Shown here: positions 14,931-63,027 of the stretch, in pieces
Layout of the letters: each line of letters opens with the position of its first letter
Numbering within the stretch: the first letter of the stretch is position 1
DNA from: Chloroflexota bacterium
GTDB lineage: Bacteria > Chloroflexota > Limnocylindria > Limnocylindrales > CSP1-4
NCBI GenBank assembly: GCA_015478725.1
Contig: JADMIG010000001.1
Location: 186,001-250,000, forward strand
Length of the DNA stretch: 64,000 bases
Reading direction: 5' to 3'
Made by a program: the position numbers and the translations under genes
Notes under the pieces: generated by a model
What the model saw: only the letters and a program-made list of their open reading frames with translations
Databases searched by the model: none
Told to the model about the DNA's origin: nothing

Positions 14931-15475
14931 CGAGTCGGGGCGAACTCGCCGAGGAGGTCGCCCGACTCGAGGCCGCCGGACGGGCCGCCGTGGACATCCC
15001 GGCCAAGATCCGGCGTGCACCGGCGAAGACGGCCGGACTCGCGGCGGGGGCGGCATTCGTCGCCCTCGGCGGGCCCCGGCGGGCCCTGCGGCGCGTGGCG
15101 CGGGCTGTCCGCGGGCCGCGCGAGGAACTTCCGTCGTCCATGCTGCCGGGCGAGGTGGAGAAGGCGGTCCGGGCGCTCGGCACAGACGGGGCCCGCGTGC
15201 GCGGGACGCTCGAGCGCGAGTTCGCGGCCTACCTCGATGCGAACTCCGCCGAGCGGAAGCGCCGCGATCTCGGGGCGACGAGCAGCCTGCTCGCCGGATC
15301 GATTCTCGGGCCGATCACCCGCCGCCTCGGCCGCCGACTCGCCGATGAGCTGTTCAGCCCGAAGGCGGCGGGCGGTGCGGCGTTCGACGCGGCCGTGAAG
15401 CGGGCACGGGAGCGCTGGACGCAGACTGGCGGCACGACGCCACCGCCGAGCGGGGACGAGGCCCGCCCGGGGTAG
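14891..15475 (+). CDS. hypothetical protein, partner of holin-like gene
   Basis: 194 residues from a GTG overlapping the previous gene by 40 bp. The same frame is open far upstream but Arg-rich there, so this start is chosen because helical, protein-like sequence begins here. An N-terminal helix (GELAEEVARLEAAG) leads to a basic stretch and one hydrophobic segment near 50-65 (TAGLAAGAAFVALGGP). A charged helical tail follows (RRRLADELFSPKAAG context). It resembles DUF3618-like proteins that accompany holin-X genes, but I cannot assign a family with certainty. Confidence 0.5.
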   Translation: MGARTDAARAAAVASRGELAEEVARLEAAGRAAVDIPAKIRRAPAKTAGLAAGAAFVALGGPRRALRRVARAVRGPREELPSSMLPGEVEKAVRALGTDGARVRGTLEREFAAYLDANSAERKRRDLGATSSLLAGSILGPITRRLGRRLADELFSPKAAGGAAFDAAVKRARERWTQTGGTTPPPSGDEARPG

Positions 15476-15838
15476 CCGTGATTGCCTGACACGTCGTTGG
15501 CGAGGATGCCCAGCGGATCGAGCCATCTGGGCCAGATTCCGGCAGATGGCCATGAGGCGGGCGTTGGTCTGCACATCGGTGTCAGGTGGCCCTCAGCCGG
15601 GCATCTGGCAGGATCCAGGCGCCGGCCCGGCCCGCTCCACGCTCAGGTCAGCCAGCGCCGCGTGGGGAGTCGATGACCAACGCCCGCCTGGTGGTCAGCT
15701 GTCAGGAACGGCATGCCGCGCCGTACCCCGCTCGATGGAACCGGATCCGGCGAGCGCCCGCGGTGATCGAGCTCGAGCGCCTCGTCCACTTGGCCATGGA
15801 ACTCGGTAGAGTCGAACCCTCTGTGGGAGACTAGGCAC
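15476..15838. other. intergenic region with dispersed repeat, upstream of tRNA-Leu
   Basis: 363 bp with no supportable gene. Most of it is the dispersed element at 15510-15760. The final 80 bp lead into tRNA-Leu and probably hold its promoter. Confidence 0.6.
15510..15760 (+). repeat. dispersed ~250-bp intergenic repeat, copy A
   Basis: This stretch aligns over about 250 bp, by eye roughly three quarters identical, with the reverse complement of 61240-61500. Exact shared words include a 17-mer (15537-15553 versus 61454-61470), a 13-mer (15637-15649 versus 61358-61370) and a 12-mer (15674-15685 versus 61322-61333). Internally GGCGGGCGTTGGTC (15557-15570) and its perfect complement (15674-15687) form an inverted repeat within longer imperfect 28-bp arms. 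It carries no convincing protein. It may be a decayed MITE-like or structured RNA element. Confidence 0.7.
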
Positions 15839-15926
15839 GGGCGAGTGGCGGAATGGCAGACGCGCCGGCCTTAGGAGCCGGTGCCGCGAAAGCGGCGTGT
15901 CGGTTCGACCCCGACCTCGCCTACCA
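15839..15926 (+). tRNA. tRNA-Leu (anticodon UAG)
   Basis: 88 nt including an encoded CCA end. The acceptor arm pairs GGGCGAG (15839-15845) with CTCGCCT (15916-15922), including one terminal G-T pair. The anticodon stem CCGGC/GCCGG encloses the loop CTTAGGA, giving anticodon TAG. The T arm is GTCGG-TTCGACC-CCGAC. A long variable arm (CCGC GAAA GCGG) is characteristic of leucine tRNA. It reads CUA and, by wobble, other CUN codons. Its 3' end is abutted by a degraded recombinase-like frame on the opposite strand, suggesting past use as an integration site. Confidence 0.95.
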
Positions 15927-16177
15927 GATCCTCCGGTATGCGAACCGCAGCCGGCACCCGGTACGTCGGCCGGATGTCGTCGGGCGAGATGACCCGGATC
16001 TCGCCGATCAGGAGGCGCAGGAGCGCCTTGGTCCGGGCTCGCTGTCCCTGCCGCAGGACCTCGCCCAAGGGCCTGACTGAGCGCCCACGACACGACGAGT
16101 CCTTGATCAGCGCGAAACTCGGTCACGCTGCGCTTCAGGGTACGAAGGACAGTCACGTCTGCGCCGGCTCGCCGCAC
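15927..16177 (-). pseudogene. degraded recombinase / Mrr-like nuclease debris
   Basis: Two minus-strand frames look protein-like but join out of frame. The right part (about 16070-16177) reads DVTVLRTLKRSVTEFRADQG and LVVSW, which resembles the C-terminal region of Mrr-type restriction endonucleases. The left part (about 15930-16068) reads RTKALLRLLIGEIRV and PTYRVPAAV, resembling the C-terminal end of large serine recombinases, and runs into the tRNA-Leu 3' end. No full-length gene can be reconstructed. I read it as residue of an inserted element. Family resemblance is from memory of motifs and has not been searched. Confidence 0.4.
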
Positions 16178-16666
16178 TCACGCGACCGCCCGCGACATCG
16201 TGCCGGTGCGCACCACTCGCAGCTGGCCCGCGTGCGAAGGGAGATGTACCTCCGCCTGCGCATCGAGCAGATGGGCGATCGAGACTGGCTCGTCGATGCG
16301 CACGCGGTTGCCGTCCTCGACCCGTGTCGGAAAGCGGCGAACGGCAGTCGCGTCGTCGACCAGCCCGGCCAGCTGCATGACTTCAACCGCAGATCGGCGC
16401 GCTTCGTCAACGAGGCAGACCCAGTCGCCGGCCGCCTGCACGATCGCCTCCAGGTACGAAAGACGTACGGCCGGTCGGTTGTCGTAGGCGGGCTCTCGGC
16501 CGCTCAACGCTTCAGCGAGGTGCGCCGCGATCAGTCGGTTGTTCGCGATGATGTGGGCCACCACCATCTGGGGCGTCCATTCGTCCGAGGGGCGAGCCGC
16601 TGGTCCTGTGCCTTCTGCCGCCGCGAGGAACCCGTCAAAGGCTTGAGCGAGCCCGCGAAGGTCCAT
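16178..16666 (-). CDS. DinB/maleylpyruvate isomerase-like protein
   Basis: 162 residues. The start ATG at 16666 is chosen because GGAG lies 9 nt upstream and the protein-like sequence begins there. It is mostly helical: MDLRGLAQAFDGFLAAAEGT, then EWTPQMVVAHIIANNRLIAAHL with an Asp/His-type metal-ligand pattern (VVAHI), and a late histidine cluster HLPSHAGQL. This is the four-helix DinB/MDMPI N-terminal fold, whose members are metal-dependent thiol-S-transferases or unknown. It is the last gene of the VOC-ArsR-SRPBCC-ABM-DinB operon, 59 bp after the ABM gene. Activity is unassigned. Confidence 0.65.
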   Translation of the reverse strand: MDLRGLAQAFDGFLAAAEGTGPAARPSDEWTPQMVVAHIIANNRLIAAHLAEALSGREPAYDNRPAVRLSYLEAIVQAAGDWVCLVDEARRSAVEVMQLAGLVDDATAVRRFPTRVEDGNRVRIDEPVSIAHLLDAQAEVHLPSHAGQLRVVRTGTMSRAVA

Positions 16667-16725
16667 CTGGATGGCGCTCCTTTCTGCTCGGGTTAGGCGG
16701 TGCTGCCGCCTCGCAGGCGCCTCCC

Positions 16726-17034
16726 TCAACCGGCCTCTGAACCGACCGCCGGAACGCTGAACTCGTCGAGGAAGTACAGCTCGCGCGGGCGGGCCTCCCA
16801 CTGCGCGAAGGGGACATCGACGATCGCCGCGCCCATGGTCGGTCGGGCTGCCGCCAGCGCCTCGCGCGACTCCCAAACCGACATCGCCACGACCCGCGAC
16901 TCATCGCGCCAGGTGCGCACCTCGACCAGCCCAGGCACACGGGCAAGGGTCTCGCCAAGCCCTGCCATTGCTCCGAGAAGGTCGTCGAGGTGTTCAGGCT
17001 TGGGGTGGTGGATCGCGAGGAACAGGTGCTTCAT
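16726..17034 (-). CDS. antibiotic biosynthesis monooxygenase (ABM)-like protein
   Basis: 102 residues from ATG 17034, with GGAGG about 10 nt upstream. The layout KHLFLAIHHPKPEHLDDLL, then VPGLVEVRTWRDESRVVAMSVWES matches a dimeric alpha/beta-barrel (ABM/EthD-like) domain with a late FLDEFSVP strand. Members oxidise small aromatic compounds or only bind them, without a cofactor. It lies 87 bp after the SRPBCC gene and 59 bp before the DinB-like gene in one direction. Substrate is unknown. Confidence 0.65.
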   Translation of the reverse strand: MKHLFLAIHHPKPEHLDDLLGAMAGLGETLARVPGLVEVRTWRDESRVVAMSVWESREALAAARPTMGAAIVDVPFAQWEARPRELYFLDEFSVPAVGSEAG

Positions 17035-17121
17035 CCTGGTTGACCTCCGTTGCACGAACTGCCCGCGGTGGCTTGTTCGGGGTGTCGCGCCAGCCAGCGC
17101 TCTTCTTGGAGGGCGGATCGG

Positions 17122-17598
17122 CTACTTCGAAACCACCTCCGCTTCTGTCGCCGCCACAAAGTCGCTCAGGATCGACGCCCAACCGGCCTCGTACCCGCCA
17201 GCCTGGCGCGTGGCCGCTGCGATCTGTTCCGCGGTCAGCCGCTCCCAGCCACGGTGTTCGAGTTCGACGCGGGTCAGAGCAGGGCCGAGGGGGCGGAAAT
17301 GAACCTCGACCTCGGTGGCCCGGGGGAGAATCTCCCAGCTGATTGCGAAGCGGGCCGGGGGCTCCCAGGCGAGGACGTGGCCCCAGTCGACGGTGCGGCC
17401 ATCTGCCCAGGTCTCGAAGACCCGCCCGCCCAGGCGCGGCTCGAAGGTGACCTGCACGACCTGCTCCTGGCCGAGCGAGAAGGGGCGAGTCGGCCACCAG
17501 CGGCCGATCTCGCGCACGAAGACGCCAAACGTGTGGTCGAGGTCGCTGCGCACGGTCACCGCCTTGCGGATCGGCGCAAGCACGGTCGCCTCAGGCAT
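17122..17598 (-). CDS. SRPBCC (AHSA1-type) domain protein
   Basis: 158 residues from ATG 17598. That start overlaps the end of the ArsR gene by 8 bp, the usual junction in this pair. The START/AHSA1 pattern is clear: IRKAVTVRSDLDHTFGVFV, then EIGRWWPTRPFSL, a GGRVFETWADG hairpin, and a long C-terminal helix with GYEAGWASILSDF. The cavity fold binds hydrophobic ligands. ArsR-SRPBCC pairs are widespread and are usually thought to be autoregulated, with an unknown ligand. Confidence 0.8.
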   Translation of the reverse strand: MPEATVLAPIRKAVTVRSDLDHTFGVFVREIGRWWPTRPFSLGQEQVVQVTFEPRLGGRVFETWADGRTVDWGHVLAWEPPARFAISWEILPRATEVEVHFRPLGPALTRVELEHRGWERLTAEQIAAATRQAGGYEAGWASILSDFVAATEAEVVSK

Positions 17599-17980
17599 GC
17601 TTCGGCTCCGCCCAATCAGCGGCAGAGAGGTCTTCGGCTGACCCCGCCCACCCCGCCTCCGCCTCCACGAGCGCGCGCGCAGCCTCCAGGCTCTCGCCCC
17701 ACAGCTCGTCAAGGTAGGCGCGCAGCTCCCGCAGCCCGTCCGGGCTGGCCCGATAGAGCCGCCGCACCCCCGCCCGTCGCTCGCGCACGAGGCCCGCCGC
17801 TTTCAGTAATTGGAGGTGCTGCGAGACGGCCGAGCGGGTCACCGCGTAGTGGGCGGCGATCTCGCCTGCAGGGAGCTCCCGATCGACGACCAGTTGGAGG
17901 ATCGCCCGGCGGCGTGGCTCGGCGAGCGCCCGGAGCGTCTCGTCGAGCGCCGCCTCCGAGCGCGGCTCCCTCACGCCCAC
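17591..17980 (-). CDS. ArsR-family HTH regulator
   Basis: 129 residues from a GTG that overlaps the end of the VOC gene by 10 bp. The winged helix is canonical: LRALAEPRRRAILQLV, ELPAGEIAAHYAVTRSAVSQHL, then LLKAAGLVRERRAGVRRLYR. The metal-site cysteines of ArsR/SmtB (ELCVCDL) are absent, so it is the non-metal SRPBCC-associated type. It probably represses its own five-gene operon. Confidence 0.85.
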   Translation of the reverse strand: MGVREPRSEAALDETLRALAEPRRRAILQLVVDRELPAGEIAAHYAVTRSAVSQHLQLLKAAGLVRERRAGVRRLYRASPDGLRELRAYLDELWGESLEAARALVEAEAGWAGSAEDLSAADWAEPKHA

Positions 17981-18327
17981 AGCCCGACCGGGTTGCCGTC
18001 CGGGTCGGCGAAGATGGCGATGCGCCCGTAGCCGGAGGGCAGGTCCATCGGGGGGAGGAGCGTGCGGCCGCCGAGCTGCTCGGCGCGGGCCAGATACGCC
18101 GCAAGATCAGCGACCCGCAGGTAGATCTTCACCCCCGAAGGGAACGCCTCGCTGGCCTGCCCGATCCCGCCGCCGACCGCCCCCTCGCCTGCCCCGGTGT
18201 CGACGAGCGCGTAGCCCGTCAGCGAGGGGTCGGCATCGATCTTCCAGCCGAAAAGCTCGCCATAGAAGCGCTGTGCGCGGGCGCTGTCAGGTGAGATCAC
18301 CTCGAAGAACGCGATCGGGGCGCCCAT
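17971..18327 (-). CDS. VOC-family glyoxalase/dioxygenase-like protein
   Basis: 118 residues from ATG 18327, with AAGGAG 7 nt upstream. The sequence has FFEVISPDSARAQRFYGELF at the start and AIFADPDGNPVGLW at the end, the two conserved edges of one VOC module. One metal ligand position is visible as E in the FFEV strand; others are unclear, so catalysis is uncertain. It is the first gene of the operon. A TTGACA at 18425-18430 (minus) could be its -35, but no good -10 pairs with it at 17 nt. Confidence 0.75.
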   Translation of the reverse strand: MGAPIAFFEVISPDSARAQRFYGELFGWKIDADPSLTGYALVDTGAGEGAVGGGIGQASEAFPSGVKIYLRVADLAAYLARAEQLGGRTLLPPMDLPSGYGRIAIFADPDGNPVGLWA

Positions 18328-18445
18328 GGTCGTGCTCCTTCTGCTACGCCAACGCCGTTGGTCACATCGGAATGGCTGGAAGTTAGCATCTGCTTTCGTA
18401 AGTGTCACCTATCAGACGGGCCCTTGTCAAACGGGCCCGGCGGAC

Positions 18446-18832
18446 GTGACGGAGTCGAAGGGCACCGCGTACGTCACGTTCCACGACTACGACAGCGGCA
18501 CCCAGATCCGCGCGGCCCTCGCGACGAATGGCGCGCATCCACGCCCGCTCCGGGTCGAGGATCCGTCCTCGCTCCCGACCGGCCTCTCGCCCTACGAGCG
18601 GGTCTGCTTCGAGGCAGCCGTGGCGGCCGATCCGGCGACGGTCGCTTGGCTCGGCGCGGACGCGAGCACCGCCGCCCGGCTCGAGTTCAGCGGGTTCGCC
18701 GTGGCCCCGTGTCCGAGCGAGCCCGGCTTCTGCGGCTCCGCTGTGGTCATGAGCCCGAACGCCTCCTACCCGTCCCCGCCGCACGTCACGGTGGACCTGC
18801 GGACCGCGCGCGTCATCCGCTACGGCGGCTGA
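18446..18832 (+). pseudogene. possible truncated secreted-protein remnant
   Basis: An open frame of 128 residues from GTG 18446 has normal amino-acid composition, with two cysteine pairs (VCFEA; CPSEPGFC) and a C-terminal VTVDLRTARVIRYGG typical of an extracellular beta protein. It has no signal peptide and no SD, and the upstream sequence is the VOC operon promoter region. I read it as the 3' end of a gene that lost its beginning, perhaps during rearrangement of this accessory region. Family unknown. Confidence 0.4.
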
Positions 18833-18935
18833 GCATCGCTGCTGGAGCGGTCAGTCCGTCGCTTCCACACGCTGACCGACACCTCGCTCCACGGTGCGGT
18901 CCTGAGGGCCGCAGCCGTGGCCCCCTCGGTAGGGA

Positions 18936-20591
18936 TCAGCTCCCGAACAACTCGGCCTGCTCCGCCGCTTGCTTCGTGACGATCCGCTCCGCTTCCTGAT
19001 ACGTCGAGAGGACGAACGGTGGCAGCTGCGGCTTCTTCCCCTCCTCGAGCAACTCGCGGATGCTGAGGATCTGGATCCGCGGGTAGTCGCGCTTCCAGAG
19101 CTCCGAATGAAAGAGGCCGGCGGTGTCGGCCTCGAGGCGCATCTCGCGTGACGGTTCCTCGAGCGTGATGAAGAGCCCGATCGAGCCCTTCTCCCGGTCG
19201 AGCGTGCCCTTGAGATCGCGGAGCATCGCCGAGGTCACGTGGCCGCTCTTCACGCTCACGAGGACCGAGTGGAGCTCGCGGTTGAGGTCGGTGAACGTGA
19301 TGAGTCCGTCGATGCCCCGATCGGCGCCCTTCTTCTCGACCCCACCGAGCGGTTTCGCGTCGACGAGGTTGAGTGCCCACCACTGGAACTGGTAACGACC
19401 ATCCGGCGATGCGGCGAGCTGGCGGGCGCCCTCGACCTCCGTCGGCTGCCCGATCACCTCCACTTCGAGGAGCCCGAAGCTGTCCTTGAGCCGGGCCCGC
19501 ATGACGGCGATCGAGAGGTACGTGATGTCGATGCCGATCCAGCGCCGATCGAGCTTCTGGGCGGCGACGAGCGCCGTGCCGCAGCCGCAGAAGGGGTCGA
19601 GGACGAGGTCGCCTGGGTTCGAGGACGTAGAGACGATTCGCTCCAAGAGCGTGAGCGGCTTCTGGGTACCCCAGCCGAGTCGCTCCTTGGCCTGCGAGTT
19701 CACCGGAGCGATGTCGTCCCACACGTCCTGAATTGGTCGGCCGGCCGACTCGTCGAGGTACCGCTTGAATCGTGGGACCGCCCCCGGGCTTGGTTGAATA
19801 ATCCGGCCCGCGTCGATCAGCTCTTGCATCCGGTCGCGGCTGTAGCGCCAGTACCGCCTGACCCCCATCACCTCGTACTCGGGATTCCCTTTCGCCGCTC
19901 CTCCGGGCCCGGTGATGTTGTCCAACCCGTAGCGCCGTCCGGAGCCGGGTTCCACGTGCGGGTAGTGCGAGGCCGCGTAGTCTGCCCCGAGCGGTTCGTA
20001 GAGCTGATTCCACAGGTACAAGTCGGATTTCGCGTAGACGAGGACAACGTCATGAAGTCGGCCGAAGTGCCGTGAACCTTGCGCTCGGTCGCTGTGGGCG
20101 GTCGAGCGTTTCCAGATGATCTCGTTGACGAAGTTCTTGGGGCCGAAGATCGCGTCGAGGACGAGCTTGAGGTAGTGACTTGCTGTCGGGTCGCAGTGCA
20201 GGTAGAGCGAGCCCGTGGGCTTGAGCACACGGCGGAGTTCCACGAGCCGAACGGCCATCTCGACGAGGTAGGCCATCATCTGGTTCTCGCCCACGCCGGC
20301 CCGGAGGGCGGCGACGATCGTGCTCACCGTGTTTGGGACGCGGCCCTCGTGACGGGCCGTGTTCGTCAAGTACGCGTACGTCGCCTCGGCGGATGGGCCC
20401 CAGTGCCACGTGTCCTCGAAGGCGAGAAGCTGCGCGTCGCTCTTCCGTCCCGACTCGTCCTTGAAGATGACGTTGTAGTCGCGGTTGCTGTTGAACGGCG
20501 GATCGAGATAGACGAGATCGACCGACTCGTCCGGGATGTACCGCCGAAGGATGTCGAGATTGTCCCCGTAGTAGAGAACGTCCGTCTTCAC
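18936..20591 (-). CDS. DNA methyltransferase fused to restriction-like domain
   Basis: 551 residues from a GTG at 20591. Motif order is beta-class: catalytic DPPF (30-33) comes first and the SAM-binding DPFCGCGT (332-339) near the end of the methylase module, with WKRS and TQKP segments between. It should methylate adenine N6 or cytosine N4. From about 400 a second domain begins with WWALNL, then KGADRGIDG (421-429) and VSVKSGHV (445-452). This is the Mrr-like PD-(D/E)XK pattern with D428 and K448, but a Ser sits where relatives have Gln or Glu (SVK instead of QVK). The C-terminal GLFITLEEP and RDYPRIQIL parts match known methylase-nuclease fusions. It is divergent from the HEPN-motif gene. 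Confidence 0.85.
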   Translation of the reverse strand: MKTDVLYYGDNLDILRRYIPDESVDLVYLDPPFNSNRDYNVIFKDESGRKSDAQLLAFEDTWHWGPSAEATYAYLTNTARHEGRVPNTVSTIVAALRAGVGENQMMAYLVEMAVRLVELRRVLKPTGSLYLHCDPTASHYLKLVLDAIFGPKNFVNEIIWKRSTAHSDRAQGSRHFGRLHDVVLVYAKSDLYLWNQLYEPLGADYAASHYPHVEPGSGRRYGLDNITGPGGAAKGNPEYEVMGVRRYWRYSRDRMQELIDAGRIIQPSPGAVPRFKRYLDESAGRPIQDVWDDIAPVNSQAKERLGWGTQKPLTLLERIVSTSSNPGDLVLDPFCGCGTALVAAQKLDRRWIGIDITYLSIAVMRARLKDSFGLLEVEVIGQPTEVEGARQLAASPDGRYQFQWWALNLVDAKPLGGVEKKGADRGIDGLITFTDLNRELHSVLVSVKSGHVTSAMLRDLKGTLDREKGSIGLFITLEEPSREMRLEADTAGLFHSELWKRDYPRIQILSIRELLEEGKKPQLPPFVLSTYQEAERIVTKQAAEQAELFGS

Positions 20592-20975
20592 GGTCGGAGC
20601 GTAGCAGGCACCGGATAGAACACCGCGTCGGTTGTCTCAGACAAAGGGCTACGGCTCATGCATCCGCCTGCGACGGCTCTTCGCCCCTGGCGGCGCGAGA
20701 CGCCTCCCGAGGGCCCACTGGTAGGCGCGACTTCCCTGCTTGAGTTGCGCGGCGGCACGATCGTCATAGAAGCCGAGCTCGCGCAGGAGGAGACCCGTCA
20801 TTTTCGGAGAGGCCTGAACGGCGCGACAGACGACTCGCCGAGGATCCGCTCTCAGTTCCAGACGCCTCAAGGGTCATGCCCTGCTCTTTCGGCGCGCCAG
20901 ACACGCAGGAGCCTGCGCCGGGAGGGCCTCGTTCCGGGACGGTTACAAGGGTGCCTCAGATGTGAGAATGCCTCC
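20592..20975. other. divergent region of the putative defence island
   Basis: 384 bp between the methyltransferase and the HEPN-motif gene. A TACGCT box at 20598-20603 (minus) serves the methyltransferase. A short minus-strand frame from ATG 20801 to 20649 (50 codons, with MTGLLLRELGFYDDRAAAQL) has coding-like composition but no recognised family or SD; it may be a fragment. I see no clear promoter for the plus-strand gene. Confidence 0.4.
20598..20603 (-). promoter_or_regulatory. -10 box of leaderless promoter (methyltransferase)
   Basis: TACGCT preceded by TGC on the minus strand, 6 nt before the GTG at 20591. Confidence 0.5.
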
Positions 20976-22229
20976 GTGAAGGACGACGAGGAGCATGGCC
21001 ACGCGAACGATCCGACCGAGGACGAGTCGGCTGGTAGGGCACCCTTGACCAGGGAGGAGATCCTCCGAACGAGACTCACGGTGTACGCGTTTCCGGAGTT
21101 CGACCTCTCGGTCTCAGCGTGGTCGCACGCACAGTCTGTGGCGATGATGGGCGACGCCGTTGCCGCGGGCATCGACGATCGCGAGTTCGCTGTGCGAACG
21201 CTCGGCCGCCAGATCGTGGCACCCAGGGGTACTGGGGCCAATGAACTCCGGAGCTGGGCCGACGACCGCCTGCAAGCGCTGCTGCGTGCCTTCCTTGACC
21301 GAGCCACCACGCTGTTCTCGATCGATGCCGAGGTAGCGTCGTTCGAAACCCTCCGGGCGGCCGTCCGACGCCGACGGGAGGAAGAGGAAGCCGCATATGC
21401 ACCGCTGCTCGCGCAGATCAAGTCGATGGCGACGCTGCCTCCGGGGATGCTCGCGGCGCTCGAACAGACCCAACAATCCCTACCGCTCGTCACCGAGACC
21501 ATCGCGGCAGCCGCGGCTCAGGCAGAGCGAGCGGTGGCTCAGTTCCAAGTTACGCTCGCCCCAATCCTCGACAGGATCACGGTTGACTACGCGGCGGCGT
21601 TGCGGATCCTGGCGCCGGACACACAGGCCGAAGAGCAGGTGCGATACCTATTGACCCGCGGCTGGTACCCGTCGCCCGAGATGCCATCCTACGATCCTGA
21701 GATTGCCCGACTGGCAGCCGCGGGCAACATCGTCGAGGTCGACAGGCGCATGGCGAACTTCGCCGAACGCCGGCTCGGCCACGTGGCAATACGCGTCCGG
21801 TCGAGCTTCCCGGCTCGCGCCCCATTCGTTGAGGACGCGGTCTGGGCTCATCGGAATCGCCGGTACACATTGACCGCTCCCGCGCTCCTCGCCCAGGCGG
21901 ATGGAGCTTTCTACGACATCATCGGGGAGCAACTCTATCGAAAGGGAGGCACAGCTGCGCGTGAGGCGTTGAATCACCTGTTCGTGCTGCGGGGCACCGA
22001 GCAATGGTGGGCCCGGACCGTTCTGCTTCCCATCGATGAAGGTTCGAGCCTCGTCGTCAACACAGCCCAGCGCACTACTCATCGGCAAGGCGATCCCGAC
22101 TACGGCCCATTGAACCGGCACGGAGTGCTGCACGGTGTCGATCTGGACTATCCGACCCGCGAGAACTCGCTCCGTGCGTTCACGCTTCTCGATTACCTAT
22201 GCTGGCTCTCGCAGATCGTGCAGCCATAG
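20976..22229 (+). CDS. hypothetical protein with C-terminal HEPN-type RxxxxH motif
   Basis: 417 residues from GTG 20976; the frame is open further upstream but that part is not protein-like. Residues 1-25 are acidic. A long helical region with an EEEEAAY acidic patch and Ala/Gln-rich heptads (about 120-215) is likely coiled coil. The C-terminus contains LNRHGVLHG, in which R381 and H386 form an RxxxxH with a polar residue after the Arg, as in HEPN ribonucleases. ENSLRAFTLLDYL follows, as in many phage-defence and abortive-infection relatives I know. Its position beside a restriction-modification fusion supports a defence role. Nuclease activity is inferred. Confidence 0.6.
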   Translation: MKDDEEHGHANDPTEDESAGRAPLTREEILRTRLTVYAFPEFDLSVSAWSHAQSVAMMGDAVAAGIDDREFAVRTLGRQIVAPRGTGANELRSWADDRLQALLRAFLDRATTLFSIDAEVASFETLRAAVRRRREEEEAAYAPLLAQIKSMATLPPGMLAALEQTQQSLPLVTETIAAAAAQAERAVAQFQVTLAPILDRITVDYAAALRILAPDTQAEEQVRYLLTRGWYPSPEMPSYDPEIARLAAAGNIVEVDRRMANFAERRLGHVAIRVRSSFPARAPFVEDAVWAHRNRRYTLTAPALLAQADGAFYDIIGEQLYRKGGTAAREALNHLFVLRGTEQWWARTVLLPIDEGSSLVVNTAQRTTHRQGDPDYGPLNRHGVLHGVDLDYPTRENSLRAFTLLDYLCWLSQIVQP

Positions 22230-22573
22230 CCACGACACCCGATGGGGCGGGATGGCGCGTCCGGAGTTTGTTGATGCCGCACTCGCCGCGATCGAGCGTG
22301 GCGGGCGGGGGCCATGCTTGCAGGAGTCAAAGGCGACTGTTGCATGTGCGCCGGGGCGGGAGTCTTGAGGCCGAGGCAAACATAGGACCTCCGTCCGGGG
22401 CAGTTCGTCGCGCCGTGTCGATGAGCACGAGAACGAGGCCACGGGCGGCGCTCCTCTTTCGGGACGGCTCGAGGTGCAGGAACCTCCCGGCCACAGTCAG
22501 GTCGTCGGACCTCGCACGCAACGTCTCCGACCGACCATGTAGACCAGAGGCCAGCGGCGAGAGGTCGCGGATA
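22230..22573. other. 344-bp gap within the putative defence island
   Basis: The frame of the downstream gene stays open through this gap but is Arg/Ser-rich and unlike a protein. A 38-codon frame from ATG 22252 (MARPEFVDAALAAIERGG) could be a degraded start of another gene. I see no RNA structure that I recognise. A separate promoter for the downstream gene is likely, but no consensus is visible. Confidence 0.35.
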
Positions 22574-24163
22574 ATGGTGGACGCGATGCGCACCAAGCGC
22601 CCTCTTACCTCACCTGGACCGAGCCAGTTCGCCGATTACGTGGAGTCACGCCCGCCGCAGCTTGGGTGTTGGCGAGATGGCGCACTCGGCCTGTACCCGA
22701 TGCTCGCTTGGCTCAACACGCACCCGGTCGTGGAGCAGCGAAAACGCATCGCGACCGAGGGCCCCCTCTTCGCAGCGTTCGCGACGACCCGCGCCCACCA
22801 CAATCAAGTCGGCGTCGCCGTGGGGTGGACCACCGAGCACATGACAGGATCGCGGCGCGCACGCGCCTCCACCGAACAGGAGAGGGTCGCACTCTTCGAT
22901 CTCGCGGGGCGTCATTGGTTGATCCGGAATCTCCTGGCCGAGGTCCGTCAGGGCGTCCGCCGGTATGAGGCGGACGGGACACGGATCGTTCTGAGGTACG
23001 ACGGGGACAATCGTCTTGACGCTCTCGACCGCCTCCTCGGTCTGGTCGACGACCTTGATTCCATCGCCGACCCACCCACCTTTGCGGACGGGCGCCTCCC
23101 CCGGTGGCTGGCAGGAGGAGGTCGGGACGTTCCATGGCGCAAGGTCCCTTTGTGGGCCAAGGAGCAGTACCGAACATTCGCGGCGCGCCTCATCGATGGC
23201 TACCCCAGCTATCTGCCCGGAGATCTCGATGTAGGCGGGTTCACCATGGCTGAGGCGACCCGGGTCTGGGTCGAGCTGATGGCTCGCGGTGCCCAAATGC
23301 ACGCTTGCACGCTGCATGGTTCTGTGAACGCGTCTGTCGTCGTGCCGATGCTGGTCGCCGGCGACTTGATCGACGAACTCGCCGAGGCTTCCGCCGTCGA
23401 TGTCCAGCGAGTCGGCGCGCTGGCGAACCTGCTCACCCTCGACCTCCGTCGCCGTCCCGATCCCTGTCTGACCCCGCTTGTTCCGATCGCCGGGGATCGG
23501 CTGGTGCCGATGAGCAGCCTGATCATTCCGTCGTCGCCGATCCGCAATCTGACGGCTCTCCTGCAGCGTGATCCAGCCTCGTTTGGCAAGGCCGGGAATT
23601 TGCTCGGCCTGCTCGGCGCACGAACGACGGCCGCCACGTTGGGCCGACTCTCGGGCGCGCGCGTGGAGACTGGCGTGAAGGTGTTACGCGACGGCGGCAG
23701 CCAGGCGGGCGATCTCGATGTGGTCGCCTACGACCCATCGGAAGGCACGATGGTGATCTTCGAGGTCATGTGGCAGATCGACCCTGACGGATCAGCAGAG
23801 GTCGCTCGATCGGAGGAGCGGGCCCACGAGAAGCGAGCGCAGGTCGCTCGCCTTCGATCGGAAATGGATGGCGGCCAGGCCACTGCGCGGTGGCCCGCTA
23901 GCTGGCCGGACTGCAGCAGCGTGCGGGCACGCTGGTTCATCGTCACGCCGAACGTCCTGCCGGTGCGAATCGTCGAACCGGATGGGATCACCATCCGGTC
24001 ACACCAGATGCTGGCTCGAATGCTTCGTGCGGGTGCCTCCGTGTCGGATCTCATCAGGCTGCTCGATGACCCGCCTCATCCGCCATCCGAGCTCTTGCAG
24101 ACGCAATGGAAGCGGGTGCGCTACGGGGACTACCGAGTGGAGTTCGATTCGATCGTGGCTTGA
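22574..24163 (+). CDS. unknown protein with C-terminal PD-(D/E)XK-like domain
   Basis: 529 residues from ATG 22574 (GAGAGG about 10 nt upstream; ATG 22586 is possible). The first 375 residues match nothing I recognise. The last 150 begin with GDLDVVAYDP and MVIFEVMWQIDP, followed by EVARSEERAHEKRAQ. This spacing equals the D-x(14)-ExKW nuclease core seen in defence-island proteins I know as IELKW...ERSEE. Here the catalytic Lys is Met (D382, E397, M399), so the domain may be inactive or the Lys may be supplied elsewhere. It follows the HEPN-motif gene in the same direction, and codon use is less GC-extreme than its neighbours. Confidence 0.55.
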   Translation: MVDAMRTKRPLTSPGPSQFADYVESRPPQLGCWRDGALGLYPMLAWLNTHPVVEQRKRIATEGPLFAAFATTRAHHNQVGVAVGWTTEHMTGSRRARASTEQERVALFDLAGRHWLIRNLLAEVRQGVRRYEADGTRIVLRYDGDNRLDALDRLLGLVDDLDSIADPPTFADGRLPRWLAGGGRDVPWRKVPLWAKEQYRTFAARLIDGYPSYLPGDLDVGGFTMAEATRVWVELMARGAQMHACTLHGSVNASVVVPMLVAGDLIDELAEASAVDVQRVGALANLLTLDLRRRPDPCLTPLVPIAGDRLVPMSSLIIPSSPIRNLTALLQRDPASFGKAGNLLGLLGARTTAATLGRLSGARVETGVKVLRDGGSQAGDLDVVAYDPSEGTMVIFEVMWQIDPDGSAEVARSEERAHEKRAQVARLRSEMDGGQATARWPASWPDCSSVRARWFIVTPNVLPVRIVEPDGITIRSHQMLARMLRAGASVSDLIRLLDDPPHPPSELLQTQWKRVRYGDYRVEFDSIVA

Positions 24164-24457
24164 AAGGACTCCATGCCGGGCGCGGCGCGCGCACGGTCAG
24201 TGCCGACGTGGCATACGGAGCTGGGGCTCGGTCGGGCCCCGCGGAGCGTCGCGCTTGTTACCTCGACCTCAAGTCCATCCGCCCCGACCAGATCAGATGC
24301 GCTGACCTGGCGAGCCACTGCTGGTGATGGCCGGCTTGATCCCGCCGCGCGGTTCGTGCACCGACGACCATGCACAGCGTCCACCCGGGCCGAACGCCCG
24401 GCGACAGCGCGGCCCGGCGTCCGGCTCAGCGGGCCGGGCTCGGGCGTCCGCCCATCA

Positions 24458-24480
24458 GGCCGGCCCGGACCGGGCCGGCC
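24458..24480. promoter_or_regulatory. perfect 11-bp-arm palindrome upstream of tig
   Basis: GGCCGGCCCGG and CCGGGCCGGCC flank a single central A. The palindrome ends 2 bp before the -10 box TATACT and covers the position where a -35 would lie, so it is placed like an operator. A hairpin terminator for upstream genes is less likely because no T-tract follows. The GC-only sequence could partly be chance in this genome. Confidence 0.45.
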
Positions 24481-24482
24481 CG

Positions 24483-24488
24483 TATACT
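24483..24488 (+). promoter_or_regulatory. -10 box of tig-clpP-clpX promoter
   Basis: TATACT lies 8 nt before the tig ATG at 24497, so the mRNA would be leaderless or nearly so. This is the strongest -10 match among the start-proximal boxes. Confidence 0.55.
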
Positions 24489-24496
24489 TCGGCCCG

Positions 24497-25909
24497 ATGA
24501 ACGTCACCTCGATCCCCGCTCCGAAGAGTTCCATCGTCCTCACCGTCGAGCTCCCGCCCGAGCGACTCGATCGCGCCGTGGACGAGGCCGTCCGCCGCCT
24601 GTCCCGCCGGACGAAGGTCGCCGGGTTCCGGCCCGGCAAGGCACCCCGCGCGGTCCTCGAGCGGGTCCTCGGGCCCGAGGCGGTCCACGACGAAGCGGTC
24701 GAGCACCTCGTCTCCGACGCGTACCGGGCGGCGATCCTCGAGCAGGATCTCGTGCCACTGACGAGACCCGAGGTCGAGGTGGTGCGGGCCATCGCGGGCG
24801 AGCCGGTGGTGTTCACGGCCACCGTCCAGGTGCGCCCGGAGGTGACCCTCGGCGACTACCGGAGCTTCACGTTCCGGCCGGAGATCGAGGCGATCGACGA
24901 CGCGAAGGTCGCCACGGTCCTCGACGAGCTGCGCGACCAGAACGCGGCCCTGACCCCCTCCACGGAACCCGCGAAGAAGGGCGACTACGCGATCATCGCC
25001 TATCGCGGTACCCGGGACGGCGAGCCGTTCGAGGGCGGCAGCACGGAGCGGATGCCGCTCATCATCGGGAACGAGCGGCTCATCCCAGGCTTCGAGGACC
25101 ACCTCGTGGGCATCCGGGCGGGGGGATCGACCGCGTTCGACATCGACTTCCCGACGGACTACGCGGAGCCGGGTCTCGCTGGCCGGACCGCCCACTTCGA
25201 GGTTGACCTGCGGGAGCTGCGGACCAAGGTCCTGCCCGATCTCGACGACGAGTTCGCCCGATCCATGGGGGAGTATCCGGACCTCGCCGCGTTCCGGGTG
25301 GACGTTCGCCATCGCCTCGAGCGGAACGCGCTCGACCGGGCTCGCCATGGATTCAGCGACCGGATCATCGACTACGCCGTCGCGAACAGCACTCTCGAGC
25401 TCCCGGACGTCCTCGTGGACCAGGAGATCGAGGTGATGCACGACGAGTTCCGCTCCTCGCTCGTCCGGCAGGGGATCACCGAGGAGGCGTATCTCAAGGT
25501 CGTGAAGCAGACGGAGGCGGACCTCCATGCGGAATTTCGGCCACGGGCCGAGGGTCGGGTGAAGACGCTGCTCGTCCTGTCGAAGATCGCCGAGACGGAA
25601 GGCGTGACGGTGGACGAGGCGACCATCGAGACGGAGATCGCGGCCGCCCGGGTGCGGTATCGCGGGGAGCCGAAGCTCCTCGCGTACTTCGAGTCGGACC
25701 GGGGTCGCGCGTTCCTCCGTAGCACGCTCCGCCGGAGCCAGACGGTGGAGCGACTCGTCGACGAGTGGCTCGTCGCCCATCCCGACCACCCGCCGATCCC
25801 CCACGCCGAGAGCGACGAACCGGCCGCAATCAGCCTCGAATCCGCGGCCGCGTCGGCGGCGATCGGAGCGACCGACCCGGACGCGGGCCCGGCCGCCGAG
25901 CCTCGCTGA
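24497..25909 (+). CDS. tig: trigger factor
   Basis: 470 residues from ATG 24497. The ribosome-binding signature GFRPGKAP lies near residues 42-49, the FKBP-like peptidyl-prolyl isomerase domain spans about 150-240 ([34 protein letters not shown]), and a helical chaperone domain follows to about 435. It docks at the ribosome exit tunnel and shields nascent chains. The last 30 residues are an acidic, Ala-rich low-complexity tail. It heads the tig-clpP-clpX block, a common bacterial arrangement, with 52 bp to clpP. Confidence 0.95.
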
Positions 25910-25961
25910 CCCCGGCCCTCATCCACTCGACCTGCCAGAAGCTCAGGACTGGAGACCGCCG

Positions 25962-26666
25962 ATGCTCGTGCCGATGGTCATCGAATCGTCGAGTCGCGGG
26001 GAGCGCGCCTACGACATCTACTCGCGGCTCCTCCGGGAGCGGATCATCTTCCTCGGCGATACCGTCGAGGATCACGTGGCGAACCTCGTCATCGCCCAGC
26101 TCCTCTTCCTCGACTCCGAGGATCCGGAGAAGGACATCTACCTCTACATCAACTCGCCGGGTGGCATCGTCACGGCGGGTCTGGCGATCTACGACACGAT
26201 GCAGTACGTCCGCTCACCCGTCAGCACGATCTGTATCGGCATGGCGGCGAGCATGGCGTCCGTCCTCCTCGCCGCCGGGGCGCCGGGCAAGCGCTTCTCG
26301 CTCCCGAACAGCCGGATCATGATCCACCAGGGGTCCGGCGGATTCCGCGGCAACACGCCGGACGTGTTCATCCAGGTGAAGGAGCTCGAGCAGCTCAACG
26401 AGCGGCTCCACGAGATCCTCGCCCACCACACCGGACAGACGGTCGAGAAGATCCGCAAGGACACGGATCGTGACTACTTCATGGCTCCCGAGCAGGCCCG
26501 GGAGTATGGCATCATCGACGCGGTGTATTCGACGGCCGGTGACCCGCTGAGTCTTCGTCGGAGCGGTGCCGGAGCCGCCACGGAGACGGACGCGATGGTG
26601 GGTCCCGCCGAAGCGCCGGCTGCGGCGACGGCGAAGAAGCAGGCAGGGCCGGGAACGGGACGATGA
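25962..26666 (+). CDS. clpP: ATP-dependent Clp protease proteolytic subunit
   Basis: 234 residues. The catalytic triad is Ser97 (GMAASMAS), His122 (RIMIHQ) and Asp171 (DRDYFM), all intact. The first residues [21 protein letters not shown] match the processed N-terminus of ClpP. It forms the tetradecameric peptidase that works with ClpX, encoded 13 bp downstream. The 40-residue Ala-rich extension after residue 190 is longer than usual. The gene ends with TGA just before the clpX GTG. Confidence 0.95.
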
Positions 26667-26679
26667 GAGGGACGCGCGA

Positions 26680-27990
26680 GTGACCTCGACGAGCGGCGCG
26701 AAGGGGCCCAAGGTCCCGTACCGCTGCAGCTTCTGCGGCAAGAGCCAGGAACAGGTCCGCAAGCTCATCGCGGGCCAGGGCGTCTACATCTGCGACGAGT
26801 GCATCAACCTCTGCCAGGAGATCATCGAGGAGGAGATGCTCGAGGCGCCGAAGGCGAAGCCGTCGAGCACCAAGCTCCCGAACCCACGCCAGATCACCTT
26901 TTCCCTCGATCAGTACGTGATCAGCCAGGAGCGCGCGAAGAAGGTCCTCTCGGTCGCCGTCTACAACCACTACAAGCGGATCAACGCCGGCCATGCCGTC
27001 GACGAGGTGGAGCTCCAGAAGTCGAACGTGCTCCTCGTCGGGCCCACCGGCTCGGGCAAGACGCTCCTTGCCCAGACCCTCGCCCGCGTCCTCGACGTGC
27101 CGTTCTGCATCGCCGACGCGACGTCGCTCACGGAGGCGGGGTACGTCGGCGAGGACGTCGAGAACATCCTCCTCAGGCTCATCCAGGCGGCGGACTTCGA
27201 CGTGGCGCGGGCCCAGCGGGGGATCATCTACATCGACGAGATCGACAAGATCGCCAGGAAGGCGGATAACCCCTCGATCACACGCGACGTCTCCGGCGAG
27301 GGCGTCCAGCAGGCGCTCCTCAAGATCCTCGAGGGAACCGTCGCCAACGTCCCGCCCCAGGGCGGCCGGAAGCATCCGCACCAGGACTTCATCCAGATCG
27401 ACACGACGAACGTCCTGTTCATCTGCGGCGGCGCCTTCGACGGTCTCGAGAAGATCGTCGAGGAACGGGTGGGCAAGCGCGGGATCGGCTTCGGAACCGA
27501 GACGGCGGTCTCGAAGGCGGACCGGTCGAAGATCCTCGAGCGACTCATGCCGGAGGACCTCCTCAAGTTCGGGCTCATCCCGGAGTTCATCGGCCGCCTG
27601 CCGGTGATCGTCACCCTCGCGACGCTCACGGCGGAGGATCTCGTCCGCGTGCTCACCGAGCCGAAGAACGCGGTCACCCGCCAGTTCCAGCGGTTCCTCC
27701 AGCTCGACAAGGTGGAGCTCGTGTTCACCCCGGGCGCGCTCGTCGCCGCCGCCGATGTCGCCCTCGACCGAAAGACCGGGGCACGCGCCCTCCGCTCGAT
27801 CGTCGAGGAATCGCTGCTCGAGGTGATGTTCGACATCCCGGAGCGGACGGACATCCGCAAGTGCATCATCACCGAGGAGACGATCCGCCAGGGCCGCCCG
27901 CCGCTCCTCCTCACGAAGTCCGACGTGGATCAGGGCGTCGACGAGACGAACTACGAAGACTGGCTCGCCGAACGGGGCGAGACCGCCTAG
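26680..27990 (+). CDS. clpX: ATP-dependent Clp protease ATPase subunit ClpX
   Basis: 436 residues from GTG 26680; the frame extends further upstream only as Arg-rich sequence overlapping clpP. The zinc finger CSFC...CDEC is at the N-terminus, followed by Walker [18 protein letters not shown], Walker [10 protein letters not shown], the GGRKHPHQ pore loop (RKH) and the sensor-2 [11 protein letters not shown]. It unfolds substrates and feeds them to ClpP. It is the last gene of tig-clpP-clpX and is followed by a hairpin at 28045-28068. Confidence 0.95.
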
Positions 27991-28044
27991 ACGAGGTTCC
28001 AGGGGTCCCGAGTTTGCCGGGGCCGCGGGGTGCGGGGCCGGGCG

Positions 28045-28068
28045 CTCGACCGCCCCGGCGCGGTCGAG
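28045..28068 (+). terminator. hairpin downstream of clpX
   Basis: A perfect 8-bp stem CTCGACCG/CGGTCGAG with an 8-nt GC-rich loop, 55 bp after the clpX stop. No T-tract follows, so it is a weak terminator candidate. Confidence 0.4.
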
Positions 28069-28181
28069 GCCGCCAGATGGGCTGACTCCCGGCTGGCGGG
28101 ACCTATCCGGATGTGATGCGGCCGGCGGTGCCCTCGGGGCGGCCATCGCTCGTCGAGTTCGCATTCCAGCTGCGCGATCTC

Positions 28182-28271
28182 CCATCTGGTGGGCGTTGGC
28201 CGAAGTCAGACGACCGGGCCCCCAGCCCGGCAGGCGACCGATCCGGATAACGCCCACCGGGCGGTAGATGG
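28182..28271. repeat. inverted element related to the dispersed repeat (copy C)
   Basis: Arms GGTGGGCGTT (28188-28197) and AACGCCCACC (28249-28258) pair perfectly, and the outer words CCATCT (28182-28187) and AGATGG (28266-28271) also pair after a 7-nt insertion. The core GGTGGGCGTTGG also occurs at the inverted-repeat arm of copy B, and AGATGGCC recurs in copies A and B. The middle is unrelated. It looks like a shorter member of the same family. Confidence 0.45.
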
Positions 28272-28303
28272 CCGAAGTCCGGCAGGTCCGGGCCGCGCGG
28301 CGG

Positions 28304-28744
28304 TCAACCGCCCGACGGTTCCCAGCCGGCCACCGCGAGCTCGAAGCCCTCGAATTCGAACGCGGGGCTCACCGTGCAGCCGACGAGCGTCCACGATCCG
28401 AGCGAGCGCGCCGCCTGCCACGAGCCGGCCGGCACCGTCGCCTGCGGGCGCTCACCTGCCGCGAGCTCGACCCCGAGGATCGTCCGTGCGGCAGCGCGGC
28501 CGTCGGCGGCGATGCCGAGCTCGAGCGGGGATCCGGCGTAGAAGTGCCACGTCTCGTCGGCGTCGACGCGGTGCCAGGCCGATCGCTCGCCTTGGCGCAG
28601 GAGGAAGTAGATCGCCGAGCTCGTCGCGCGACCGCCGTCGACCGCCGTCGTTCGCCACGTCTCCGCGTACCAGCCACCCTCCGGATGCGGGCGCAGCGAG
28701 AGGCGCGCGATGATGTCGTCCGGGTCGGTGTCTTCGTGGGTCAT
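28304..28744 (-). CDS. cupin superfamily protein (DUF985)
   Basis: 146 residues from ATG 28744. The DUF985 signature LRPHPEGGWYAETWR is near the start, followed by SSAIYFLLRQGERSAWHRV and a cupin barrel with ETWHFYAG and ELAAGERPQATVPAGSWQAA. Some relatives are annotated as cupin_5 or uncharacterised; metal-binding His residues are partly present. Function is unknown. A TACGCT box lies 8 nt before the start. The frame also extends to 28849, but that part is encoded by the tandem repeat and is rejected. Confidence 0.8.
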   Translation of the reverse strand: MTHEDTDPDDIIARLSLRPHPEGGWYAETWRTTAVDGGRATSSAIYFLLRQGERSAWHRVDADETWHFYAGSPLELGIAADGRAAARTILGVELAAGERPQATVPAGSWQAARSLGSWTLVGCTVSPAFEFEGFELAVAGWEPSGG

Positions 28745-28752
28745 CGCCGTCC

Positions 28753-28758
28753 AGCGTA
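28753..28758 (-). promoter_or_regulatory. -10 box of leaderless promoter (cupin gene)
   Basis: TACGCT on the minus strand, preceded by GC, 8 nt before the ATG at 28744. Confidence 0.5.
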
Positions 28759-28780
28759 GCGCGTGGCGCGTGGCGACCCG

Positions 28781-28843
28781 CCCGGAGCCGGGCTCATGGC
28801 GGGGACCCGGAGCCGGGCTCATGGCGGGGACCCGGAGCCGGGC
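28781..28843. repeat. 25-bp tandem repeat, 2.5 copies
   Basis: The unit starting CCCGGAGCCGGGCTCATGG is repeated exactly at 28781-28805 and 28806-28830, with a third partial copy to 28843. Each unit holds the palindrome CCCGGAGCCGGG-like core. It lies between two divergent genes. Confidence 0.85.
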
Positions 28844-61175: not shown

Positions 61176-61239
61176 TCGGGGTGCCCCACGGGTGCGGCGG
61201 CCTGAGCGAGCGGTGATTCCCCACGGACCTTGGATAGCG

Positions 61240-61500
61240 CAGACCCGCCCGGCTGCTGCCGGATCCGATCGCCCGGCCGAGTACGTCGCGGCACGCCGAT
61301 CCTGACAGAGGACCCCCAGGTGGGCGTTGGTCACCGACTCTCCACGTGGCGCTCGCAGACCTGAGCGTGGTTCGGGACGAGCGGGAGCGTGGACGCTGCC
61401 AGATACCCGGGTTATGGCGACCTGTCACGATCCGACTGACCAGTGCCCCCCTGATGGCCATCTGCCGGAACCTGGGACGGAGGGCTCGATCCGATGGGCA
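61240..61500 (-). repeat. dispersed ~250-bp intergenic repeat, copy B (inverted)
   Basis: This is the reverse-oriented partner of 15510-15760; shared exact words are given there. The inverted-repeat arms are GGTGGGCGTTGGTC-like at 61319-61332 and the related sequence near 61440-61465. It lies between the helicase and rarA stops (61175 and 61525), where no gene is supportable. Confidence 0.7.
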
Positions 61501-61524
61501 ATCTCGTCACCGACCCGTCCCGAG

Positions 61525-63027
61525 CTACTCCTCGGCGTCGGCGCGCTGGGTACGGGCGAGCTTCCGCCGACTCTCGGTGTGCGCCTTCGCACCGTCGCCC
61601 ATGCCGACCATCGGGTCACCGCCGGGTTGGGGGACCCGCTTCGGTCGGTCCGCTCGTCGCGCCCGGCGTTCCGCCATGTACTCGCCGATGCGGCGCTCGA
61701 CCCCCTGGTCGGATGGGACGTAGTAGCGCCGGCCGACGAGCGCGTCGGGCAGGTACTGCTGCTCGATATCCGCTCCCTCGTAGTCGTGTGGGTAGCGGTA
61801 ACCGGCCGCATCGCCGGTCTCGCGACGCTGGCGGTCCGTCGCTGCGCGGAGGTGCCGCGGGACCGGCTGGGATCCGTGCCGCAGCACGTCGTCCATCGCC
61901 GCCGCGTAGGCTCGACCGACCCGGTTGGATTTCGGCGACACAGCGAGCGTGATCGTCGCCTGGGCGAGCGCGTACTGCGCCTCCGGCAGCCCCACCCAGT
62001 CGAGCGCCGATGCGGCGGCGACCGCGACCGACAGCGCCCGGGGATCCGCGGTGCCGACGTCCTCCGAGGCGCTGATGATGAGCCGCCGGGCGATGAATCG
62101 CGGGTCCTCGCCAGCGGCGATCATCGAGGCGAGCCAGTAGAGCGCGGCGTCCGGGTCATTGCCGCGAAGGCTCTTGATGAATGCGCTCGCCGTGTCGTAA
62201 TGGCCGTCGCCCGCCCGGTCGTAGGTGAGGACCCGCTGCTGTGCCGCCGCCTCGACGTCCTCGAGCCGCGGGGCGAGCCGACCGTCCGCGTCGCGGGCCT
62301 CTTCCGCATCGGCGAGCGCCACCGCGCCTTCGAGGATATTGAGGGCCGACCGTGCGTCGCCGCCGGCGATGTCGACGAGGTGGGCGAATGCATCCTCGGG
62401 AAGGGCCACGCCACCGGCCGGACCCAGGTCGCCCGCGAGTCCACGCTCGGCGTCGGACAGCGCTCGGCGGACGACGGTCGCGACATCCGCGTCGCTCAGC
62501 GGTTCCAGGCGCCAGACGCGCAGGCGGCTCAGGAGGGCGGAGTTCACCTCGAAGTACGGGTTCTCCGTCGTCGCCCCGATGAGGGTGACGGTGCCATCCT
62601 CGACGTGGGGCAGGAGCGCGTCCTGCTGCGCCTTGTTGAAGCGATGGATCTCATCGAGGAACAGGACGGTGCGGGTGCTGCCGAGCGTCAGTCGCTCCCG
62701 CGCGTTCGCCACGATCGAGCGGACGTCCGCGACGCCGCTCATCACCGCCGAGAGGGTCTCGAAGTCGGCGCCGACCGCGGTCGCGAGGAGACGGGCGAGG
62801 CTCGTCTTGCCCGTCCCGGGCGGACCCCACAGCAGGAGCGAGCCGAGATGACCGCGAGCCAGCGAGCGGCGGAGCGGGCCGCGCTCGCCGACGAGGTGCT
62901 CCTGGCCGACGAACTCGTCGAGATCCCGCGGGCGCATCCGGGCGGCGAGTGGTTGCCGCCCCGGCGGCGGAGCGAAGAGCGCCTCCGGGCGGGCGCCTCC
63001 GGCGGCGGTCGATCGGCGGGCCGGCAT
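61525..63027 (-). CDS. rarA: replication-associated recombination protein A (RarA/MgsA)
   Basis: 500 residues from ATG 63027; the frame is open further upstream as Arg-rich sequence. Walker A GPPGTGKT, Walker B LFLDEIHRFNKAQQDAL, GATTENPYFEVN sensor 1 and LSRLRVWRLEPL, then the MgsA C-terminal domain with YDRAGDGHYDTASAFIKSLRGNDPDAALYW. It is an AAA+ ATPase acting at stalled replication forks. The final 50 residues are a charged tail. Confidence 0.93.
   Translation of the reverse strand: MPARRSTAAGGARPEALFAPPPGRQPLAARMRPRDLDEFVGQEHLVGERGPLRRSLARGHLGSLLLWGPPGTGKTSLARLLATAVGADFETLSAVMSGVADVRSIVANARERLTLGSTRTVLFLDEIHRFNKAQQDALLPHVEDGTVTLIGATTENPYFEVNSALLSRLRVWRLEPLSDADVATVVRRALSDAERGLAGDLGPAGGVALPEDAFAHLVDIAGGDARSALNILEGAVALADAEEARDADGRLAPRLEDVEAAAQQRVLTYDRAGDGHYDTASAFIKSLRGNDPDAALYWLASMIAAGEDPRFIARRLIISASEDVGTADPRALSVAVAAASALDWVGLPEAQYALAQATITLAVSPKSNRVGRAYAAAMDDVLRHGSQPVPRHLRAATDRQRRETGDAAGYRYPHDYEGADIEQQYLPDALVGRRYYVPSDQGVERRIGEYMAERRARRADRPKRVPQPGGDPMVGMGDGAKAHTESRRKLARTQRADAEE

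Follow-up and report, generated by a model that had tools for sequence, protein, structure and literature searches.

What kind of sequence is a non-coding repeat that occurs twice, in opposite orientation, within one 64,000-nucleotide stretch of a Chloroflexota genome (hereafter the window)? The preliminary description left two possibilities, a MITE-like family or a structured RNA. The pair itself is genuine: positions 15500-15751 and the reverse complement of 61258-61506 form a 252-bp alignment with 79.4% identity (E 9e-56), and the 17-nt exact word reported as common to both copies is TTCCGGCAGATGGCCAT. The proposed size of about 250 bp fits this alignment but falls short of the full units, which are larger (Table 1). 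The flanks are also as described, copy 1 lying near a tRNA-Leu (15839-15926) and copy 2 between the helicase and rarA genes; the UvrD-type helicase ends at 61175, and the RarA/MgsA AAA+ protein (ATPase), on the minus strand, ends at 61525. The inner arms can be read as TNARL-like peptides, yet their second codon positions vary, and we therefore agree with the earlier view that no protein is encoded.

When the assembly (3.45 Mb, 151 contigs) was searched at the DNA level, it returned 16 near-complete copies at 79-89% identity and many shorter matches, which on reading proved to be divergent full elements of the same layout. With a profile built from 23 divergent elements, about 50 elements were found in the genome, as the MITE-like proposal would have it, the window pair being two of them; the count stands at 53 places after manual merging of both-strand or overlapping matches, with the redundant contigs C45 and C52 included. 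Both window copies belong to a recent subfamily of 16 copies, F1, whose units carry extra outer inverted ends beginning CTAGCCGTGATTCCC. In related genomes, Blastn with one copy gave weak matches only and the profile was required to detect the elements; an exact 26-nt element pattern had no match in a public genome collection. The profile search also found elements in other genera. Two genomes hold about 50 and 14 elements, and the other 35 tested genomes of the family hold 0-6, a range in which MAG incompleteness may conceal copies. Most element positions are not common to different genomes. Some elements do share a gene neighbourhood across genera, namely the dnaK locus in G000 and G013 and one neighbour gene in G000 and G004.

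The element consists of three dyads of about 31 bp, with A and A' at the ends and B between them (consensus TGNCANNYGNNCNNCAGGNGNNCRNNTGNCA). Conservation ends abruptly at GWTYCTGNCA on both sides, so that A and A' form terminal inverted repeats, and about 35 further elements without the F1 outer ends have sharp termini at these two sites. The element is made directional by a GAGCGTG motif placed between A and B; where its GAGCGT part is recognisable, the distance from A is 60 or 70 bp and the distance to B about 25 or 35 bp. In 14 old copies from this genome, identity is about 0.6-0.7 at sites A and A' and 0.42 at B; in spacers and flanks it is 0.30-0.37, close to the chance value of about 0.29 calculated for this G+C content. 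Core identity among F1 copies is 0.8-0.9, as a recent burst would predict. When the whole window was scanned with the family site matrix, the six top matches were the six sites of the two copies (15.9-33.6 bits) and the seventh-best match reached 9.0 bits, compared with a best of 18.5 and a mean of maxima of 11.1 in 50 shuffled windows; five of the six sites score above every shuffle, and since the matrix was trained on the family, these scores show membership and are not independent proof.

Table 1 Features of the two window copies; extents of the whole F1 units are approximate.
Feature	Position	Strand	Sequence	Score and remarks
Copy 1, whole F1 unit	15472-15755	-		core 15536-15709
Copy 1, unit ends	near 15473		TAGCCGTGATT	TIR-like; other end truncated near 15755
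Copy 1, site A	15674-15704	-	TGACAGCTGACCACCAGGCGGGCGTTGGTCA	33.6 bits
Copy 1, motif between A and B	15637-15645	-	TGAGCGTGG	
Copy 1, site B (central dyad)	15580-15610	-	TGCCAGATGCCCGGCTGAGGGCCACCTGACA	28.4 bits; 94 bp from A
Copy 1, site A'	15540-15570	-	AGACCAACGCCCGCCTCATGGCCATCTGCCG	23.0 bits; 40 bp from B
Copy 2, whole F1 unit	61209-61515	+		core 61298-61471
Copy 2, site A	61303-61333	+	TGACAGAGGACCCCCAGGTGGGCGTTGGTCA	30.1 bits
Copy 2, motif	61362-61370	+	TGAGCGTGG	
Copy 2, site B	61397-61427	+	TGCCAGATACCCGGGTTATGGCGACCTGTCA	15.9 bits
Copy 2, site A'	61437-61467	+	TGACCAGTGCCCCCCTGATGGCCATCTGCCG	27.8 bits

The distances between the sites fall into discrete classes. B and A' are 40 bp apart in 38 elements and 41 bp apart in three, the A-B distance is 83-84, 93-95 or 103-105 bp, and the A-A' distance groups near 124, 134, 145 and 155 bp. 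An extra A-A' group at 104-105 bp probably reflects a few elements in which B was mistaken for the end site. The best period of the A-A' spacing is 10.25 bp (Rayleigh R 0.85, p 3.9e-16, n=49 non-F1 elements), where the p value is indicative only because the elements share ancestry and the profile that found them was built from two length classes. As the outer spacings cluster at a period of about 10.25 bp, we read the element as DNA: steps of one helical turn are a requirement of a protein-DNA complex, and an RNA would not be expected to show them.

The possibility of a structured non-coding RNA or a guide RNA nevertheless deserves consideration, since the arms complement each other and individual sequences form stable folds. 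The internal inverted arms of copy 1 are in fact longer than the 14 bp first described, 15543-15569 pairing with 15675-15701 over 27 bp at 85% identity. However, pairing across 23 copies equals that of shuffled sequences, with 70.6% of cells paired compared with 71.2% (45 possible pairs, 23 sequences). No covariation measure was exceptional in these copies, a count of pairs changed on both sides being marginal and reached by 27 of 500 shuffles. RNAalifold gave almost no consensus structure (-2.1 kcal/mol, six pairs), and in an Rfam scan of the window the tRNA-Leu alone reached the gathering score. The arms are complementary because both bear the same binding-like site in opposite orientation. 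G-U wobbles were also considered as a mark of one transcribed strand, and this idea was dropped after the pairs had been counted. TnpB omega RNAs are located at the 3' end of their gene, and the position of some elements at a gene 3' end, described below, recalls them; yet the quantisation of the spacers by helical turn speaks against an RNA. The RNA alternative of the preliminary description thus finds no support and retains next to no credibility, and the element almost certainly acts as DNA.

The MITE-like alternative fares better in part. The elements are dispersed and, like MITEs, short and non-coding, with terminal inverted repeats and bursts of similar copies, but three conserved internal sites set them apart. 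One possibility is that the F1 unit, with its CTAGCCGTGATTCCC outer ends, was spread by a conventional insertion-sequence transposase and that the three-site core is a passenger, since the inverted outer ends common to F1 units could be used by another enzyme. The genome yielded no insertion sequence bearing F1 ends, however, and all clear end matches were F1 copies or fragments. In 49 elements, no offset or length of a target-site duplication rose clearly above shuffled pairs, although old copies may have lost such a duplication. The elements without outer ends, sharp at A and A', also argue against this mechanism, which we regard as quite improbable. With no target duplication and no matching insertion sequence, the family is not a proven MITE; the core is carried by the HTH-nuclease gene unit described below.

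A recurrent gene family beside the elements encodes an XRE helix-turn-helix (HTH) fused to a PD-(D/E)XK nuclease domain. On contig C24, one element (132-303) precedes the nuclease gene (427-1074) and another (1071-1243) follows it; the gene adjoins dnaK, and site A of the downstream element starts immediately past the last conserved codons of the protein. Genes of the family were also seen beside elements in G004 and G013, and element matches found independently of the protein abut the 3' ends of family genes in G002, G007, G013 and G021; overall, a 3' element is present at about half or more of the examined genes. In 52% of 75 public loci, the arm at the gene 3' end is followed 60-300 bp downstream by an inverted copy scoring at least 11, compared with 0% for averaged arm shuffles and 10% upstream. 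These arms can reach 36 bp and more, as in CTGCCATCCAGTCAGAGGACGACTGCTCGACACCGG at L214. The HTH-nuclease family is very likely the partner of the element.

The family was detected in 33 of 37 genomes of the window's taxonomic family, with 1-11 matches each, and in one genome of another family; all database relatives returned are labelled Chloroflexota, Limnocylindrales MAGs included. In Pfam, NCBIfam and PADLOC the HTH alone is recognised, beside weak matches to MmcB, UPF0102/YraN, HSDR_N and related restriction-like families. Structural matches to the AlphaFold model (pLDDT 95) are HTH proteins of the XRE antitoxin type and proteins of R2 retrotransposons; it is presumably the restriction-like nuclease part that resembles R2. 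A D...ExK motif in a restriction-like fold is present, with fold matches to R2 and restriction-type proteins, and D115, E130 and K132 are invariant in 33 members. The proteins constitute an unnamed family of predicted nucleases of Limnocylindrales-type Chloroflexota.

The identity of this neighbour also bears on a third alternative, a res-type site for a serine or tyrosine recombinase. Sites I-III of res are likewise three dyads at integral-turn spacing, which the element resembles. But the dyads here are of odd length, the copies number dozens per genome, and the linked family is HTH plus PD-(D/E)XK rather than a recombinase. In the absence of a resolvase the element is not a res site, and we consider such a role very improbable; our attC/integron and resolvase ideas were dropped once the adjacent gene proved to encode the HTH-nuclease.

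Gene-linked elements of this architecture usually have their own site sequence for each gene family; sites differ among the nuclease families, and many start with TGNCA or similar. The second paralogue examined in this genome (C16:215-862) has a different site, TCTCATCCGCTCA...GGAACGTTGG; that motif is carried by about nine gene-less copies in the genome, most with three detectable sites. Their outer spacings are mostly 115, 125 and 146 bp and the inner ones 50-51 or 61 bp. Copies of the motif belonging to G028 occur in that genome and are absent from its sister species G002. Only the two genomes whose gene is at least 78% identical to the C24 gene are rich in the C24-type element. Site and HTH divergence across all loci were not correlated in a Mantel-type test (r 0.01, permutation p 0.36), a global result that is negative because sites saturate quickly; sites are shared only in pairs whose HTH is at least 70% identical (0.64 versus 0.37, 15 pairs). 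Linkage and family specificity are demonstrated, and fine co-evolution is not. At a separate locus (L316, G000:C35:244-391), three second-family sites follow one another at exact 60-bp steps as a small tandem array. In G026 (77% complete), element matches occur on C134 (L330) and C171 with no match to an HTH-nuclease gene, possibly through gene loss or missing sequence; this observation counts against the proposed pairing.

From the anatomy, dispersal, phasing, site conservation and gene linkage observed here, we infer binding and mobility: the gene-less elements are probably bound by the resident nuclease, and spread or maintained by it. We favour, with moderate confidence, the interpretation that the window repeat is a gene-less copy of a DNA element serving as substrate of the C24 HTH(XRE) and PD-(D/E)XK nuclease. 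In a possible mechanism, nuclease dimers would bind each dyad through the HTH, and the three sites, together with a factor at GAGCGTG, would fold into one looped complex. The nuclease would cut at this complex, and cutting might over time copy or maintain the element in intergenic DNA.

The main rival is a role in DNA architecture or regulation that serves the host, with the HTH-nuclease on three dyads looping DNA in an operator-like or nucleoid-organising manner and spread being rare or due to ordinary recombination. Conserved sites between randomised spacers would suit this role, and helical phasing is typical of looped complexes. The dnaK-adjacent gene is common to G000 and G013, and the sequence downstream of the G002 gene also reads like a dnaK end; the gene is therefore at least partly vertical, and as its inheritance at dnaK seems vertical, it may have a host function. 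The neighbourhoods shared across genera (the G000/G013 dnaK locus and the G000/G004 neighbour gene) point the same way. On the other hand, element positions are mostly unshared between genomes, F1 expanded recently, the element sits at the 3' end of the gene and not upstream of it, and the nuclease motif is retained in 33 of 33 members. We consider a purely host-serving role unlikely.

Whether the nuclease, besides acting on the element, also mobilises it is about an even question. The F1 burst supports mobility, as do element positions that differ from genome to genome and the direct-repeat pairs that enclose single genes. No insertion event or transposition was captured in the genome comparisons, and at the rarA flank, searched in relatives for an empty site, only coding parts align and helicase synteny is not kept.

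Among known systems, the closest in role are REPINs, dispersed gene-less repeats served by a vertically inherited RAYT transposase (PMC8049555, PMC3733652). Both consist of dispersed intergenic, gene-less inverted-repeat elements, and in both the chromosomal partner gene is flanked by the same repeat, is at least partly vertical and is followed in its presence by copy number. RAYT, however, is an HUH tyrosine transposase and the partner here an XRE HTH and PD-(D/E)XK protein; the element is 160-190 bp long with three helically spaced dyads; there is no covarying hairpin; and up to 11 paralogues occur per genome. With an unrelated enzyme and no hairpin covariation, the system is not a member of REPIN-RAYT. 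R2 proteins, with their restriction-like endonuclease, are among the closest solved folds to the partner model, yet the alignment is partial (TM about 0.4) and the partner has a separate XRE HTH and no reverse transcriptase. Rpn (YhgA-like) proteins, which are linked to recombination, are also PD-(D/E)XK proteins (PMC5350276) but are without a known dispersed site element, and the Pfam listing of the 33 members shows no match to Rpn/Transposase_31.

What emerges looks like a partnership, not described before, of a nuclease with dispersed gene-less elements of Chloroflexota; open-licence papers yielded nothing on point on an XRE-nuclease mobile element or on Limnocylindrales repeats. That a chromosomal enzyme serves a dispersed repeat is a known idea, and what is new is the combination of enzyme, element anatomy and dispersal. 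It is tempting to speculate, at slightly less than even confidence, that this represents an undescribed class of selfish or domesticated DNA, in which a nuclease acting on a phased three-dyad element multiplies intergenic gene-less copies, and several paralogue/element pairs coexist per genome. If so, it would be a second, unrelated answer to how small non-coding repeats can last so long in the compact genomes of bacteria, a problem that has until now been linked with REPIN-RAYT. Geometry could be approached directly through the quantised spacing, and the coexistence of several pairs with distinct motifs within one cell would provide a natural panel for specificity. A likely role would also follow for the unnamed nuclease family, which reaches 11 copies per genome in Chloroflexota of soil, peat and groundwater.

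Several observations concern single loci. Direct-orientation element pairs flank single genes in a cassette-like manner at L126 (10439, 12175), L127 (2931, 4093) and L130 (132, 1071), and the L127 pair is closely similar in appearance, spacers included. Short G+C-rich tandem repeats surround several old intergenic elements, e.g. L023, L030 and L040. Contigs C50 and C52 (L197, L198) share 10,484 bp at 100% identity, one inverted relative to the other, showing that the MAG contains redundant sequence. C45 (L196) matches window positions 15537-28843 (13.3 kb) at 99.8% overall; in the part read base by base the two are identical outside the element, and the element copy at the contig end is clearly different, which may reflect element exchange between strains or an assembly join. 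At L199 and L200 (G000:C48, C49), two elements are 91% identical and have a common 65-bp left flank (97%), and their right flanks differ.
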